Made by a program: the position numbers and the translations under genes. From positions 1-37,557 of the forward strand of contig JACRKF010000031.1 of NCBI GenBank assembly GCA_016219865.1: DNA of 37,557 bases, given 5' to 3'. The stretch's first letter is position 1. Every line of letters starts with the position of its first letter. This DNA comes from Candidatus Woesearchaeota archaeon (GTDB lineage Archaea > Nanobdellota > Nanobdellia > Woesearchaeales > DSVV01). Below are positions 895 through 31,037 of this stretch, piece after piece. The notes under the pieces were generated by a model. The model was not told the DNA's origin. It did not search any database and was given only the letters and a program-made list of their open reading frames with translations.

Positions 895-1509
895 ATGATT
901 TCAATCAACAGAATCTATTCAAATAAATGGCAGAGATTAGATGATCTTTTTGGAATGGATTGGTATGAAAAAGCGCATAGCAGAAATCTCGCTGTATTTC
1001 TTGATGATGCTGTTTTCCATTTCTATCTTGATATTAGTGTTTTCTGGAAGCATGATATACAAAGAGCTTCTCTTCAAGAGTCAATCCACATGTTTGGTGA
1101 TTATCCATCGTTAGGAAGAATAAAAGCGCATTGTGAATTTAATAACAAAGAAGATTATAGATCGCTGAAGAATTACAGGGAAATTACTTTTTATATTGAT
1201 CCTGTTCCTCAGAAAGATTTGCAGGGAGATGTTTTTCCTGCAGTTGATCTATTTTTTCCAGGAAAACCTGTTATTGCATGCAATTATAGATATAAATTGC
1301 TTATACGCTCAGCTGCGCAAACATTTGTTTCAGAACCATTTGCAATACTCAATGATATTGATGAGACAACAGATAGAAAAACAGAGTTTTCAGCTTTCTT
1401 TATAAATTGGTCTCCATCTGGAAAGAATCATCTTGGAAAATTGTATATTGCTAAAAATTATATCTACAAAGGTGGGATAGAGATTATGCTTGAAGACAAA
1501 ACAATTTGA
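895..1509 (+). CDS. hypothetical protein, 204 aa
   Basis: I do not recognise this protein family. The 204 residues are soluble in character, with no signal peptide or membrane segment, and rich in aromatic residues (many Y, F and W). The N-terminal half contains an acidic/aromatic stretch, FLDDAVFHFYLDISVFW; the C-terminal part contains FFPGKPVIACNYRYKL. Codon use matches its neighbours. A TATA-like box at 862-873 lies about 27 nt before the ATG, supporting this start and a leaderless transcript. The stop codon abuts a 40-bp palindromic repeat at 1510-1549 that could end its transcript. It lies in the same direction as the upstream regulator (42 nt gap) and the downstream aguB, but has its own promoter-like box. 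Confidence 0.6.
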   Translation: MISINRIYSNKWQRLDDLFGMDWYEKAHSRNLAVFLDDAVFHFYLDISVFWKHDIQRASLQESIHMFGDYPSLGRIKAHCEFNNKEDYRSLKNYREITFYIDPVPQKDLQGDVFPAVDLFFPGKPVIACNYRYKLLIRSAAQTFVSEPFAILNDIDETTDRKTEFSAFFINWSPSGKNHLGKLYIAKNYIYKGGIEIMLEDKTI

Positions 1510-1549
1510 TAGTATTTTCTGAGTGAACGAAGTGAACTCGGAAATACTA
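1510..1549. repeat. CGAAG-core palindromic repeat, copy 1
   Basis: A 40-bp imperfect inverted repeat starts directly after a stop codon. Outer arms are TAGTATTT and AAATACTA; the centre is GAGTGAACGAAGTGAACTC. The centre can fold as GAGT/ACTC, then tandem G-A mismatches, then AC/GT closing a GAA loop. It is nearly identical, in reverse orientation, to the copy at 25508-25547, so this is a dispersed repeat and not just a terminator. Confidence 0.85.
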
Positions 1550-1595
1550 AAAAACAGAAACATTTTTAATTTAATTCTTTATTACAACTGATATT

Positions 1596-2540
1596 ATGGC
1601 AAAACAATACAAATCAGTAAAGATTGCATTAATCCAAAGCGCAGTTTCAGAAGATATTAACAAAAATCTCCTGACAACTGTTCAGAAAATAAAACAAGCA
1701 GCAAAAAATGGAGCGCAGATTGTTTGTTTGCAGGAGTTGTTTAGAATTATTTATATAGGAGAATCAGAAAAAAAAGAATATTTTTCACTTGCAGAAGCTG
1801 ATAATGGTGAAACTGTTGCAACAATGCAAAAGCTTGCAAAAGAAAATAAAATTGTCATAATTACTCCTTTTTTTGAAGTCGCAATTAAAAAGAATCCTAA
1901 AGTCCGGATTGCCCAACAGGGAGAATTTTGCGAAGCAAAATTCTCCGAATATTTTAACACAACTGTTGTTGTTGATGCTGATGGAACAATTGCCGGCAAA
2001 TATAGAAAAATGCATATTCCTCATGATCCTGGATTCTGGGAAAGATATTATTTCAAAAATGGAGATCTTGGATTTCAAGCAATTCAGACAAAATATGCAA
2101 AAATTGGTGTATTAATCTGCTGGGATCAATGGTTTCCTGAAGCTGCGAGATTAATGACTTTATCTGGAGCAGAAATTCTTTTTTATCCTACTGCAATTGG
2201 ATGGTATAAGGAAAAGGAACCAAAACTTTATGAAGAATATAAACAAGGATGGATGATAATGCAGCGGAGTCATGCAATTGCAAATTCAGTGTATGTTGCA
2301 GCTGTTAATAGAGTTGGAAAAGAATTTGCAGATAAAGTAACTTTCTGGGGCAATTCTTTTGTTTGCGGTAATTTTGGACAATTTCTTGCGTATGCAGGTG
2401 AATCAGAAGAGATTCTGTATGCAGATTGTGATCTTTCAGAGAATAAAGAAGTGCGTGATTCATGGGGATTTTTTAATGGCAGAAGAACAGATGCATATAA
2501 AGGATTGTTAGAGAAAGAGATTAAAGAGATTAAAAAGTGA
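1596..2540 (+). CDS. aguB: N-carbamoylputrescine amidase (nitrilase superfamily)
   Basis: This enzyme hydrolyses N-carbamoylputrescine to putrescine, CO2 and ammonia, the last step of the agmatine deiminase route to polyamines, in the cytoplasm. The nitrilase catalytic triad is visible: Glu47 in CLQELF, Lys138 in GKYRKMHIP, and Cys175 in ICWDQWFPEAARL. The segments SGAEILFYPTAIGW and the C-terminal NGRRTDAYKGL are typical of this subfamily. At 314 residues it is somewhat longer than the usual 290-300. The extra length is an insertion at about residues 95-118, between the PFFE strand and the YFNTTVVVDADG strand, where family members normally have a short linker. That insertion is encoded by a palindromic element (1902-1946). 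The next gene, aguA, starts 6 nt after the stop, forming an operon for consecutive steps in the pathway. A box-A-like tract lies at about 1563-1577. Confidence 0.93.
   Translation: MAKQYKSVKIALIQSAVSEDINKNLLTTVQKIKQAAKNGAQIVCLQELFRIIYIGESEKKEYFSLAEADNGETVATMQKLAKENKIVIITPFFEVAIKKNPKVRIAQQGEFCEAKFSEYFNTTVVVDADGTIAGKYRKMHIPHDPGFWERYYFKNGDLGFQAIQTKYAKIGVLICWDQWFPEAARLMTLSGAEILFYPTAIGWYKEKEPKLYEEYKQGWMIMQRSHAIANSVYVAAVNRVGKEFADKVTFWGNSFVCGNFGQFLAYAGESEEILYADCDLSENKEVRDSWGFFNGRRTDAYKGLLEKEIKEIKK
1902..1946 (-). repeat. in-frame palindromic element inside aguB
   Basis: A perfect 12-bp stem, GGAGAATTTTGC (1920-1931) and GCAAAATTCTCC (1935-1946), closes a GAA loop. Seen on the minus strand it is followed after 7 nt by GGCAATCCGGAC (plus-strand 1902-1913). 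The same stem, spacing and 12-mer recur inside ileS at 28676-28723. Length here is 45 bp, exactly 15 codons, so the reading frame is kept. It coincides with the extra residues in AguB. Confidence 0.88.
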
Positions 2541-21118: not shown

Positions 21119-21122
21119 TGTT

Positions 21123-21160
21123 TTTTTTTGCTTGTTCACTTCGTTCACAATGCAAAAAAA
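21123..21160. repeat. CGAAG-core palindromic repeat, copy 2
   Basis: Arms TTTTTTTGC (21123-21131) and GCAAAAAAA (21152-21160) enclose the core, which on the minus strand reads TTGTGAACGAAGTGAACAA. The inner 19 nt match the copy at 25559-25596 but the outer arms differ while remaining complementary. It lies between the rpl11 promoter and the YgiT gene. Confidence 0.85.
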
Positions 21161-25366: not shown

Positions 25367-25510
25367 ATGTCGCAGCAATACGAACAAAAATCTGTTGATG
25401 CAATCGAATTAGAGGAATCTGTAAAAAAATGTCCTGATTGCGGATGTAAAGAATTTGATCTTCGCGGCGAAGAAAGATTTTGCAAGAAATGCGGATTAGT
25501 TATAGACTAG
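25367..25510 (+). CDS. small TFIIB-like zinc-ribbon protein, 47 aa
   Basis: The protein reads KKCPDCGCKEFDLRGEERFC and KKCGLVID: a single zinc ribbon CPxCG...CxxCG of the type found at the N-terminus of transcription factor B (TFB/TFIIB). Nothing follows it, so it is a stand-alone ribbon of 47 residues with a short acidic N-terminus (AIELEESV). The ATG at 25367 is preferred over an upstream ATG at 25301 because box A (25336-25345) lies 27 nt before it. It could be a transcription modulator or a stray domain; that is a guess. The stop codon TAG is the first three bases of the next palindromic repeat. Confidence 0.75.
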   Translation: MSQQYEQKSVDAIELEESVKKCPDCGCKEFDLRGEERFCKKCGLVID

Positions 25511-25547
25511 TATTTCTGAGTTCACTTCGTTCACTCAAGAAATACTA
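25508..25547. repeat. CGAAG-core palindromic repeat, copy 3
   Basis: Arms TAGTATTTC and GAAATACTA enclose GAGTTCACTTCGTTCACTC (minus strand GAGTGAACGAAGTGAACTC). It is the reverse complement of copy 1510-1549 with about four differences. It begins at the stop codon of the zinc-ribbon gene. Confidence 0.88.
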
Positions 25548-25558
25548 TAATTCTGGGA

Positions 25559-25596
25559 TATATTTGCATTGTGAACGAAGTGAACAAGCAAATATA
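25559..25596. repeat. CGAAG-core palindromic repeat, copy 4
   Basis: Arms TATATTTGC (25559-25567) and GCAAATATA (25588-25596) enclose ATTGTGAACGAAGTGAACAA. The inner part equals copy 21123-21160 (reverse orientation), but two outer base pairs are swapped T-A to A-T on both arms. It is only 11 bp from copy 3 and in inverted orientation to it. Confidence 0.88.
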
Positions 25597-25688
25597 AAAA
25601 CGTTAAATATTTAAATAGAAAATGATATCTTTTTGAATAGTAAGGATATATTGAACTATATAATAAAATATCTCAAAAAGGTGTTCAA

Positions 25689-27722: not shown

Positions 27723-30700
27723 ATGCATAAAGAAGAGAAAGAAAAACTAACTACAAGAGAGAATGAAGAACCTCTTAAGAAAGCAGGAGTTTATGATTAT
27801 AAAACTGTAGAACAAACAATCTATGATTTCTGGCAGAAACATAAAATCTATCAAACAATTAAACAAAGAAATGCTTCAGGCAAAAAATTCTATTATCTTG
27901 ATGGGCCACCTTATACTTCTGGAAAAATTCACATAGGGCATGCGTGGGGAAGAGCATTGCGTGATTCAGTTTTACGATATAAACGAGCGCAAGGATTTGA
28001 TGTTTGGGATAGAGCTGGATTTGATATGCACGGATTGCCAACAGAAAATGCTGTGCAAAAGAATTTGGGTTTGCCTTATAAAGAAGATATTGAAAAGTTT
28101 GGTGTTGAGAATTTTATCAAAGAATGTAAAAAATTGTCAGTCAATAATATGAATGGAATGATTCAAGATTTCAAAAAATTAGGAATATGGATGGATTATG
28201 ATAATCCTTATATGCCTGTCAATAATTCTTATATTGAAGGAGAATGGTGGCTTATAAAAAAAGCCCATGAAAATGGCAGATTATATGAAGGATTAAGAAC
28301 AATGACTTGGTGCAGCGAATGCAGTTCTGCGCTTGCAAAACATGAATTAGAATATGAAAAATTAACAGATAAATCAATCTATGTCAAACTTCGTCTTGAA
28401 GGAGATAATAATGAATATCTTATCATCTGGACAACAACACCATGGACAATTCCTTTTAATCTTGCAGTAATTGTTAATCCTGCAATCAAATATGTCAAGG
28501 CAGTTGTTGGAGCAGAAACATGGATTGTTGCAAAAGATCTTGCTGAAACTGTTATAAAAAAAATTTGTGACAAAGATTATAAAATAATTGATGAATTTGA
28601 TGGAAGTTGTCTTGAAGGTTTAAAGTATTTGCATCCTTTTGCGAAATCTATTGATTATTTTAAAGAAATTGCTAAAGAGAATTTTGCATCTCTGCAAAAT
28701 TCTCTTCATCAGGCAATCCGGACTCAAACTAATTCATCCAAGCTGCATACTGTCGTATTGTCGGAAGAACATGTTGATACAACTGCAGGAACTGGATTAG
28801 TGCATTGCGCTCCTGGCTGCGGTCCTGAGGATTATGAAGTTGGACATAGAAATAATCTGCCGCCTTTTAATTTTGTAAATGAACGCGGATATTTTGAAAA
28901 TATGGGAAGTTTTACAAGTTTGCAAGCAAAAGAAGATGACAAAGAATTTATCAGAAGACTTGAAGCAGAGAATGTTGTAGTTGCAACTACGCTAATTGAA
29001 CACGATTATCCTCATTGTTGGAGGCATCATACTCCTGTTATATTTAGAGCAACATCGCAATGGTTCTTTAAAGTAGAGGATTTAACTGCAAATATGAAAG
29101 AGATAAATAAAACAATTTATTGGATGCCAGATTGGGCAGGAAACAGGCAGTTTCATTCTTGGTTAGATAATCTTCGTGATAATTCTATCACAAAACAACG
29201 TTATTGGGGAACACCATTGCCTGTATGGAAATGCAAGTCATGCAATGATTATATTGTAATTGGTGATGCTAAAGAATTATTGCAAATATTGCAGGAAACA
29301 AATTCAGGCGCTAAACTTCCAGAAGATCTGCATAAACCGTATATTGATGCTGTAAAAATTAAATGTAAATGCGGCAAGATAAAAGAAAGAGTGCAGGATG
29401 TCTTAGATGTATGGGTTGATGCCGGATGCGCTTCATGGTTATGTTTGGATTATCCTGTCAGAACTGATTTATTTGAAAAATATTTTCCAGCAGATTTTAT
29501 TCTTGAAGGAAAAGATCAAATTCGCGGCTGGTTTAATCTTTTGTTTGTAGCATCAATGGTGAGCATGAGCAAACATTCTTTTAACACAGTGTATATGCAT
29601 GGTTTTATCAATGATGCAATGGGCAGAAAAATGTCAAAATCACTTGGAAATTATATTCTCCCTCAAGAAGTTATTGAGAAATATGGCAGTGATACATGCA
29701 GGTATTATATGATTGGCGCAGCAAATCCCGGAATGGATCTTAATTATAATTTTGAAGATATGAAAGTTAAGTATAAAAATTTGGGAGTATTGTGGAATAT
29801 CCAAAAATTTCTTGCAGATATGCAGAAAAGTTATGATCTGCATATAAAACAGTTATCTGAGCTTGGTGAAGAAACTGATGAAAAAAAGCTTTGTGTTGAA
29901 GATAAATATATGATTTCACTTCTTCATACAACAATAAAATCAGCAACAGAAAAATTTGAAAAATATCAGATCAATGAAATTCCGTGGGCAATTGAAAATC
30001 TATTTTTGCAATTATCCAGAACTTATATTCAGCTGGTGAGGGATAGAATAGCATTTGGCACTCATGAAGAACGAGAGCAGATATTTTCAATAATTTATGC
30101 TGTACTTTATGAAACACTTAAAATGTTTGCAACAATTGCTCCATTTATTTCAGAAAAGATTTATTTGGAATTAAAAGAAGCATTTTCCGGACTAGGAAAA
30201 GGAAATGCTACTCCAGTAAATTCTGATTTAACTGAAGAAAGCATATCTTTAGTATCATGGCCGAAATATGATGAAAAAAGAATTAATAATGTCTTAGAAA
30301 AACACTTTATTCTTTCCCAAGATGTTATTCAAAGTATTCTTGGCGGAAGAGAGAAAATACAATTAGGGATACGTTGGCCTCTTAAAGAAGCAGTAATTGT
30401 TACAGAAAATGAAGAGTTAAAGGCAGCAGTTGAATCATTAGCATCTACTATTCAAACACAAGCAAATGTAAAAAAAGTGCATATTGTGAAAGAATTTAAG
30501 TCAATCAGTATCAAAGCAAAGCCAAATTTTAAAACACTTGGCCCTGATTTTGGAAAAGATGCTCCTGCAATTATTGGAAAACTTGTGCAAGAAAATGAAC
30601 ATGCAATAATAAAGCATTTAGAACAGGGAACTTTGAAAGTAAAGTTAGATCATCGTGATTGCATTCTGCGCAAAGAACATTTTACTATTGAAAGAAAAGT

Positions 30701-31037
30701 TCCAGATCATTTAGCAGTCTGTGATTTTAGATATGGCGATCTTTATATCGACAAAGAAAGAAATTCAGCGTTGGATGCAGAAGGTTATGCAAGAGAAATA
30801 ATGAGAAGAATTCAAATGCTTCGAAAAGATATTGGACTGCAAAAGAAAGACAGAGTTAGTGTAGTGGTATCTATGGAAAATGATCTTCTTGAGATGATTC
30901 GTCCATTAAGCGGAGATATTCAGGAAAAATGCGGCGCTGATGATCTAGAGGTTTCTCTTGAGTTCAATAGCAAGAAGCATAATATTGAAGAGAAGATAAA
31001 AGGAAAGATTGTGCGGATTGGATTGGATATTGTTTGA
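27723..31037 (+). CDS. ileS: isoleucyl-tRNA synthetase
   Basis: The 1104-residue class I synthetase charges tRNA-Ile. The HIGH motif is His70-His73 in GPPYTSGKIHIGHAWG, the KMSKS loop is near residue 636 (GRKMSKSLGNYI), and the CP1 editing domain that hydrolyses Val-tRNA-Ile spans about 200-430, with WTTTPWTIPFNLAV and GTGLVHCAPGCGPEDYEVG. CxxC zinc sites occur at TWCSECSSAL and WKCKSCNDY. Two regions have extra residues. One, at about 316-341 in the editing domain between LHPFAKS and VVLSEEHVD, is encoded by the palindromic element also in aguB. The other, near residues 820-838, lies over a small hairpin at 30179-30209. The family is a standard archaeal/eukaryotic-like IleRS; it ends 9 nt before the convergent DUF4143 gene. 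Confidence 0.96.
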   Translation: MHKEEKEKLTTRENEEPLKKAGVYDYKTVEQTIYDFWQKHKIYQTIKQRNASGKKFYYLDGPPYTSGKIHIGHAWGRALRDSVLRYKRAQGFDVWDRAGFDMHGLPTENAVQKNLGLPYKEDIEKFGVENFIKECKKLSVNNMNGMIQDFKKLGIWMDYDNPYMPVNNSYIEGEWWLIKKAHENGRLYEGLRTMTWCSECSSALAKHELEYEKLTDKSIYVKLRLEGDNNEYLIIWTTTPWTIPFNLAVIVNPAIKYVKAVVGAETWIVAKDLAETVIKKICDKDYKIIDEFDGSCLEGLKYLHPFAKSIDYFKEIAKENFASLQNSLHQAIRTQTNSSKLHTVVLSEEHVDTTAGTGLVHCAPGCGPEDYEVGHRNNLPPFNFVNERGYFENMGSFTSLQAKEDDKEFIRRLEAENVVVATTLIEHDYPHCWRHHTPVIFRATSQWFFKVEDLTANMKEINKTIYWMPDWAGNRQFHSWLDNLRDNSITKQRYWGTPLPVWKCKSCNDYIVIGDAKELLQILQETNSGAKLPEDLHKPYIDAVKIKCKCGKIKERVQDVLDVWVDAGCASWLCLDYPVRTDLFEKYFPADFILEGKDQIRGWFNLLFVASMVSMSKHSFNTVYMHGFINDAMGRKMSKSLGNYILPQEVIEKYGSDTCRYYMIGAANPGMDLNYNFEDMKVKYKNLGVLWNIQKFLADMQKSYDLHIKQLSELGEETDEKKLCVEDKYMISLLHTTIKSATEKFEKYQINEIPWAIENLFLQLSRTYIQLVRDRIAFGTHEEREQIFSIIYAVLYETLKMFATIAPFISEKIYLELKEAFSGLGKGNATPVNSDLTEESISLVSWPKYDEKRINNVLEKHFILSQDVIQSILGGREKIQLGIRWPLKEAVIVTENEELKAAVESLASTIQTQANVKKVHIVKEFKSISIKAKPNFKTLGPDFGKDAPAIIGKLVQENEHAIIKHLEQGTLKVKLDHRDCILRKEHFTIERKVPDHLAVCDFRYGDLYIDKERNSALDAEGYAREIMRRIQMLRKDIGLQKKDRVSVVVSMENDLLEMIRPLSGDIQEKCGADDLEVSLEFNSKKHNIEEKIKGKIVRIGLDIV
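28676..28723 (+). repeat. in-frame palindromic element inside ileS
   Basis: The stem AGAGAATTTTGC (28676-28687) and GCAAAATTCTCT (28694-28705) closes a 6-nt loop and is followed by GGCAATCCGGAC at 28712-28723. Spacing from GCAAAATTCTC to the 12-mer is 7 nt, the same as in aguB. Length 48 bp, 16 codons. It encodes extra residues in the CP1 editing domain. Confidence 0.88.

Follow-up and report, generated by a model that had tools for sequence, protein, structure and literature searches.

Rickettsia palindromic elements (RPEs), reported also from Wolbachia, are small, palindromic, non-autonomous repeats dispersed within and between genes; many copies form in-frame fusions with genes for conserved proteins, and their transposase is not known (PMC2229807, PMC10969869, PMC3733652). 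REPs consist of a hairpin with a conserved tag on one side and occur in many copies, with a preference for gene ends and some intragenic members (PMC3733652, PMC12306157). Small mobile repeats of other kinds, such as MITEs, ERIC/RU-1, Correia and Coxiella QMITE, are also non-autonomous and multicopy, and are occasionally fused in frame to genes (PMC2229807, PMC10969869). In the mitochondrial genes of Nematomorpha, perfect coding hairpins keep the complementarity of their arms, and template switching has been proposed as the mechanism (PMC6649704).

We analysed a 37,557-nt stretch of DNA (the window) from a Ca. Woesearchaeota archaeon, whose genome assembly comprises 1.34 Mb in 55 contigs and is 91% complete. 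We found that ileS, encoding isoleucyl-tRNA synthetase (IleRS), contains a hairpin followed by a short spacer and a 12-nt tag, and that an aguB-like gene in the same window carries a unit of identical architecture on the opposite strand (Table 1). The unit encodes no protein of its own. The ileS feature is very probably a copy of a mobile palindromic repeat that is non-autonomous, restricted to this lineage and RPE-like or REP-like, and the element apparently represents a new family in DPANN archaea.

All the parts that the original prediction described in ileS (two arms, a loop of 6 nt, a spacer of 7 nt and the 12-mer) could be read directly from the sequence, as could the inverted copy of this unit in aguB, with its 3-nt loop and the same 12-mer. 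The unit had also been given as 48 bp, a multiple of three. Measured from arm to 12-mer, the ileS unit has 47 nt and the aguB unit 44 nt; lengths of 48 and 45 result only if one stem-extending flanking base is included, so a multiple of three is no fixed property of the unit. The ileS stem is longer than was described, with A28675-A28676 pairing with T28705-T28706 and A28688 with T28693 to give 14 bp. When folded as single-stranded DNA, the ileS unit gave z = -7.1 and the aguB unit z = -4.3. Two exact copies of the 12-mer in the window compare with 0.49 expected matches with up to two mismatches.

Table 1. Positions in the window of the two element copies, their host genes and a second repeat family
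Feature	Position	Strand	Evidence
ileS, isoleucyl-tRNA synthetase, 1104 aa, host gene	27723-31037	+	ORF; NCBIfam TIGR00392 789.8 bits, above cut-off
ileS unit, AA-GAGAATTTTGC-ATCTCT-GCAAAATTCTC-TTCATCA-GGCAATCCGGAC	28675-28723	+	sequence
ileS hairpin, 14 bp, arms AAGAGAATTTTGCA / TGCAAAATTCTCTT, 4-nt loop TCTC	28675-28706	+	sequence; ssDNA fold; compensatory changes across copies
Left arm as originally predicted, GAGAATTTTGC	28677-28687	+	sequence
Loop as originally predicted, ATCTCT	28688-28693	+	sequence
Right arm as originally predicted, GCAAAATTCTC	28694-28704	+	sequence
7-nt variable spacer TTCATCA, hairpin to tag, ileS	28705-28711	+	sequence
Conserved 12-mer tag GGCAATCCGGAC, ileS	28712-28723	+	21 exact matches in this genome, 0 for the reversed control
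3' tail of ileS insert	28724-28730	+	comparison with the sister's empty site
aguB-like N-carbamoylputrescine amidase, 314 aa, second host gene	1596-2540	+	ORF; TIGR03381 280.9 bits, below 410 cut-off
Element copy in aguB, on the strand opposite to the gene	1902-1946	-	sequence; missing from G004 and G002 AguB
aguB copy, 12-mer	1902-1913	-	sequence
aguB copy, spacer	1914-1920	-	sequence
aguB copy, hairpin (arms 1921-1931 / 1935-1945, loop GAA 1932-1934)	1921-1946	-	sequence
Second palindromic repeat family, core TGAACGAAGTGAAC	1509-1552		
Second palindromic repeat family, core TGAACGAAGTGAAC	21121-21156		
Second palindromic repeat family, core TGAACGAAGTGAAC	25508-25600		

Like RPEs, the woesearchaeal element is palindromic and scattered over its genome, with copies between genes and in-frame copies within conserved protein genes. 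It differs from them in its archaeal (DPANN) host, in its core of ~45 nt (105-150 bp for RPEs) and in having a hairpin at one end and an unpaired tag, where RPEs have a long stem-loop with ~12-bp terminal inverted repeats. A CGTC tag has been reported for the R. conorii RPE (PMC3733652), whereas the tag here is GGCAATCCGGAC, and the sequences of the two elements are unrelated as far as tested. With REPs it shares a short hairpin with a tag on one side, multiple copies, a preference for gene ends and the occurrence of some intragenic copies. Unlike in REPs, however, the tag has 12 nt and is separated from the hairpin by 6-7 nt, no conserved GTAG or CGTC was found in an alignment of 32 copies, the arms are strongly variable and one third of the copies lie inside genes. 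By the features tested (length, tag sequence, RAYT association) the element is neither an RPE nor a REP. It resembles the MITE-like repeats (ERIC/RU-1, Correia, Coxiella QMITE) in being non-autonomous, multicopy and fused in frame to genes, but no clear terminal inverted repeats bound the unit, no evident target-site duplication was seen and no parent IS was found with PF01797, PF07282 or PF01609. As with the palindromes of Nematomorpha, hairpins in protein genes keep their arm complementarity while coding; those palindromes are unique and of varied sequence, whereas the woesearchaeal hairpins form one tagged family across the genome.

A search of the whole genome for the 12-mer gave 21 exact and 24 one-mismatch matches (45 altogether), while the reversed 12-mer, used as a control in the same genome, gave 0. 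Nearly all of these 12-mers have a hairpin upstream, perfect or almost so, whose end lies 3-8 nt away (mostly 6-7). A covariance model was built from 32 copies. At E<=0.1 it produced 137 matches in this genome and 52 in that of the sister species G001, some of them being the same palindrome matched on the opposite strand; the actual copies number about 70 and about 20, respectively. For the analysis of context, 70 and 23 copies were curated, including some weaker ones that are hairpins without a recognisable tag. G001 (Candidatus Woesearchaeota archaeon RIFCSPHIGHO2_02_FULL_32_12, JAGVYW01) belongs to the same genus and is the closest named relative by IleRS (86-88% identity). When 145 sampled genomes of the order were searched with the model, matches at E<=1e-5 were obtained in only these two. 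A strict pattern with one fixed spacer length had no match in GTDB species, in a scan that may have excluded our own genome, and the 12-mer matches detected in other genera (L047-L052) were single, with no hairpin alongside. Ten element loci compared with Rfam 15 gave no match at gathering score, and strict or short queries gave no match pointing to a viral, phage or plasmid origin.

The element hairpin is AT-rich and perfect, with 11-19 bp and a short loop; in a subset of copies the loop is longer and structured (GATAAAAGCCATAATTGC..GCAATTAATTTACC). Many copies have, 3' of the tag, a degenerate ~35-nt tail (roughly AATARGGAATTTGGTATAAAAATTGCA), then (GA)ATTTTGCAAARTTCTC and a second half-hairpin, and little of this tail is retained in ileS and aguB. 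The longest forms reach ~100-110 nt with the hairpin at one end. In these long forms the 5' terminus, GAGAATTTTGC, and the 3' terminus, GCAAARTTCTC, resemble terminal repeats, while the ileS and aguB units stop at the tag.

Arm sequences can differ widely between copies (L008, L018 and L040 are examples). Across the 32 copies, 95.5% of arm cells were paired, and double compensatory changes were found at 9 of the 11 pairs. None of 500 shuffles reached the observed covariation by any of five measures. Related copies could beat shuffles without any structure being present; this is made unlikely by slid controls, which fell to 30-57% paired, and by the varied arms.

Other repeats of similar appearance were noted. 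The window contains a second palindromic repeat family (Table 1), with 4 exact copies of its core against 0.21 expected, and similar sequences lie near copies of the main element at L023, L024, L045 and L153. In G006, a genome of a sister genus, four analogous copies (L199, L201, L202, L203) consist of a variable hairpin, ~7 nt, CCGCTTTGAATTCG and a tail ending in TTCAAAGCTCYCT; the same layout with another tag hints at a wider class of such elements. G009 and G010, from another genus of the family, carry hairpin-only repeats (GAGAATTTTGCATAAATAGCAAAATTCTC) without the 12-mer (L083, L097, L106).

The original prediction had suggested a genome-wide search, a comparison of ileS between relatives and a structure prediction of IleRS. 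The first found the repeat dispersed throughout the genome, as described above. In the second, the insert was missing in all 38 woesearchaeal IleRS homologues (the sister and 37 others), so that the 12-mer and stem are not a conserved feature of related ileS genes. At this position the IleRS of G001 reads HFKEIAKQEIENNSSKLHT and that of our genome YFKEIAKENFASLQNSLHQAIRTQTNSSKLHT; hairpin and tag are both missing from the sister DNA, and the net difference is 39 nt, or 13 codons. Relative to most relatives the insert amounts to 18 residues, and the earlier figure of about 25 extra residues was therefore too high. In the predicted structure the editing domain has a mean pLDDT of 87.8, and the insert forms its sole internal low-confidence stretch (blocks of 53 and 61, with flanks at 83-96), consistent with a flexible surface loop. 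The sister IleRS (L055) has a short insertion of its own, RADMEGIGARG, in a different editing-domain loop; in that loop three further woesearchaeal enzymes (L069, L070, L161) carry a ~35-residue KDN-rich insertion.

The same insertion polymorphism was observed in other genes. The sister orthologues were located with a chimeric query made up of 19 segments that surround genic copies, and ten further genic sites proved to be empty in G001: LeuRS, PfkB (two separate inserts), a long-chain acyl-CoA synthetase, a mevalonate-diphosphate decarboxylase-like protein, a PUA protein, TYW3, a radical SAM protein, a hexapeptide transferase and one unnamed protein. Divergence was too great for a call at L117, L120 and the riboflavin synthase site, and at L011 and L115 the alignment misses the insert. 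No clear target-site duplication was detected at the empty sites. The aguB insert is missing in the AguB of relatives G004 (84% identical) and G002 (53% identical). Judged by these sequence comparisons, many copies, that in ileS included, were inserted in frame after the split from the sister species. Single genes with two independent in-frame copies encode a PfkB-family kinase (L025, contig C9) and a GNAT-domain protein (L033, contig C18).

All genic copies are read through in frame, and the peptides they add are short and polar, with a net gain of 11-29 residues. The peptides vary with strand and frame (ENFAxxQNSxxQAIRT, EFCxxKFSxxGNPD, SGLPxxENFAxxQNSL, VRIAQQGEFCEAKFS), which excludes a common peptide function. 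The idea that one DNA element gives unrelated peptides, proposed from the two window copies, thus extends to other genes, which read it in both orientations and several frames. Since both strands and several frames are used, what is conserved is a DNA or RNA hairpin and no peptide.

Five copies occupy orthologous sites in the two species. One of them, inside a presenilin-family gene (L122/L145), shows a compensated arm change, CTGC/GCAG against TTGC/GCAA. At a shared intergenic site (L018 in our genome, L138 in G001) the two species retain the same tag and right flank and have wholly different hairpins and spacers; on inspection, the AT-rich arms of L018 seem to run into the host flank. Two routes could lead to this, conversion between element copies or rewriting of the hairpin at its site.

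Placement was analysed with simple ORF calling, which makes the following proportions approximate. In our genome 24 of the 70 copies (34%) lie in ORFs of at least 80 aa, compared with 88% of random positions in the same loci; genic insertions are therefore depleted, as expected from purifying selection. Of the 46 copies outside genes, 18 have a hairpin that starts between -20 and +12 nt relative to an upstream stop codon in the same orientation, compared with 7.5% of random intergenic positions, and in G001 the corresponding values are 9 of 20 and 5%. Between co-directional genes, 24 copies of our genome are in sense and 4 in antisense orientation (p = 1.8e-4), a contrast that is independent of the null; the bias is weaker in G001 (6 sense, 3 antisense). 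Copies inside genes are 16 sense and 8 antisense. Compact gene spacing could produce the closeness to stop codons, but it leaves the orientation bias unexplained.

In our best explanation, copies would insert at many places and survive between genes or at tolerated genic sites. Genic survival would involve a net addition that is a multiple of three, free of stops and located in a tolerated surface loop (IleRS, LeuRS, PfkB, TYW3), and purifying selection would then clear harmful insertions. Movement may occur in trans, by a host or mobile-element enzyme reading the folded single strand and the tag, as RAYT does for REPs; to mobilisation in this specific form we give a little less than an even chance. 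Unlike in REP/RAYT systems, no RAYT/Y1 gene (Y1_Tnp) was found in our genome (91% complete), and the one Y1 fragment of G001 lies ~430 nt from a hairpin-only copy, with no obvious IS arrangement or flanking pair. Intact Y1 genes of other genera are not flanked by hairpins of the element type, and mobilisation by IS200/IS605 or RAYT was rejected on these observations. No TnpB zinc-ribbon domain was detected in 11 genomes. Our genome has a DDE_Tnp_1 gene, which the repeat does not flank, and a search for a parent autonomous IS (PF01797, PF07282, PF01609) found none flanked by the repeat in this genome. The interpretation of the ileS feature as a mobile repeat insertion is supported, and a repeat that is dispersed and inserted in genes is what we observe. 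The attribute "selfish", also part of the original prediction, is a matter of interpretation, because no mobiliser was found and the gene-end preference leaves room for function.

Besides the negative searches for a transposase tied to the element and for a clear target-site duplication at the empty sites, two observations count against our best explanation: neutral insertion alone does not predict the strong orientation and stop-codon preference, and the hairpin swap with a kept tag at L018/L138 goes beyond simple insertion. The post-stop sense placement would suit a functional 3'-end element whose hairpin, like that of enterobacterial REPs, acts in the mRNA on 3'-end stability, processing or termination, with the genic copies as tolerated strays. 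The stop-codon and orientation counts given above for both species (for orientation, the 24 to 4 of our genome) favour such a role, and REPs have been described close to gene ends (PMC12306157). We nevertheless consider this reading unlikely, with about one third of the copies in ORFs, several of them antisense to the gene, one genus only among 145 genomes of the order, many copies missing in the sister, and compact intergenic regions that may yield part of the spacing. A 3'-end function and mobility are compatible and not exclusive. The arms themselves might be maintained by template switching in replication (quasi-palindrome correction), which would keep hairpins perfect by copying arm onto arm, with spread only passive and neither selection nor transposition involved. 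The double arm changes at the shared in-ORF site L122/L145 and the apparent extension of the L018 arms into the flank point in this direction, as does the mechanism proposed for the Nematomorpha coding palindromes (PMC6649704). As an account of the whole it is possible but doubtful, since template switching cannot make new dispersed copies that share one non-palindromic 12-mer tag; it may reasonably explain part of the arm upkeep, not the spread, and can act beside mobility.

Intron- or intein-like removal of the unit from mRNA or protein, leaving the proteins unaffected, is a reading for which no support was found; excision from mRNA had been raised in the original prediction. It is very improbable given the in-frame reading of all genic copies as short polar peptides and the lack of an Rfam match at gathering score for the ten loci. 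The chance that IleRS and AguB share a conserved protein motif or functional loop is close to nil. Nothing beyond the two window copies speaks for it, and it was rejected on account of their opposite orientation, different peptides and unrelated hosts and the absence of the insert from 38 homologues. A bolder reading, which we regard as quite unlikely, is a distinct archaeal class of "tagged hairpins", in which the tag would be a stable recognition site and the hairpin a module that turns over (L018/L138), with different-tag sets in sister genera (G006, CCGCTTTGAATTCG). Such elements would spread by a transcription- or single-strand-coupled route favouring stop codons and would repeatedly lengthen essential proteins of minimal archaea.

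In-frame invasion of essential genes by palindromic repeats is known mainly from Rickettsia and Wolbachia, and we found no archaeal report of it. The open-access literature searched yielded no description of such elements in DPANN archaea, which is weak evidence of absence. The sister pair offers the same genes with and without the insert, so that the rate of insertion, the choice of frame, the tolerance of loops and the maintenance of arms can be measured directly. The consistent post-stop position is a testable hint on how the element moves or what role it has, and the parallel found here, in a DPANN archaeon with a small genome, suggests repeated occurrence of the process in reduced genomes.
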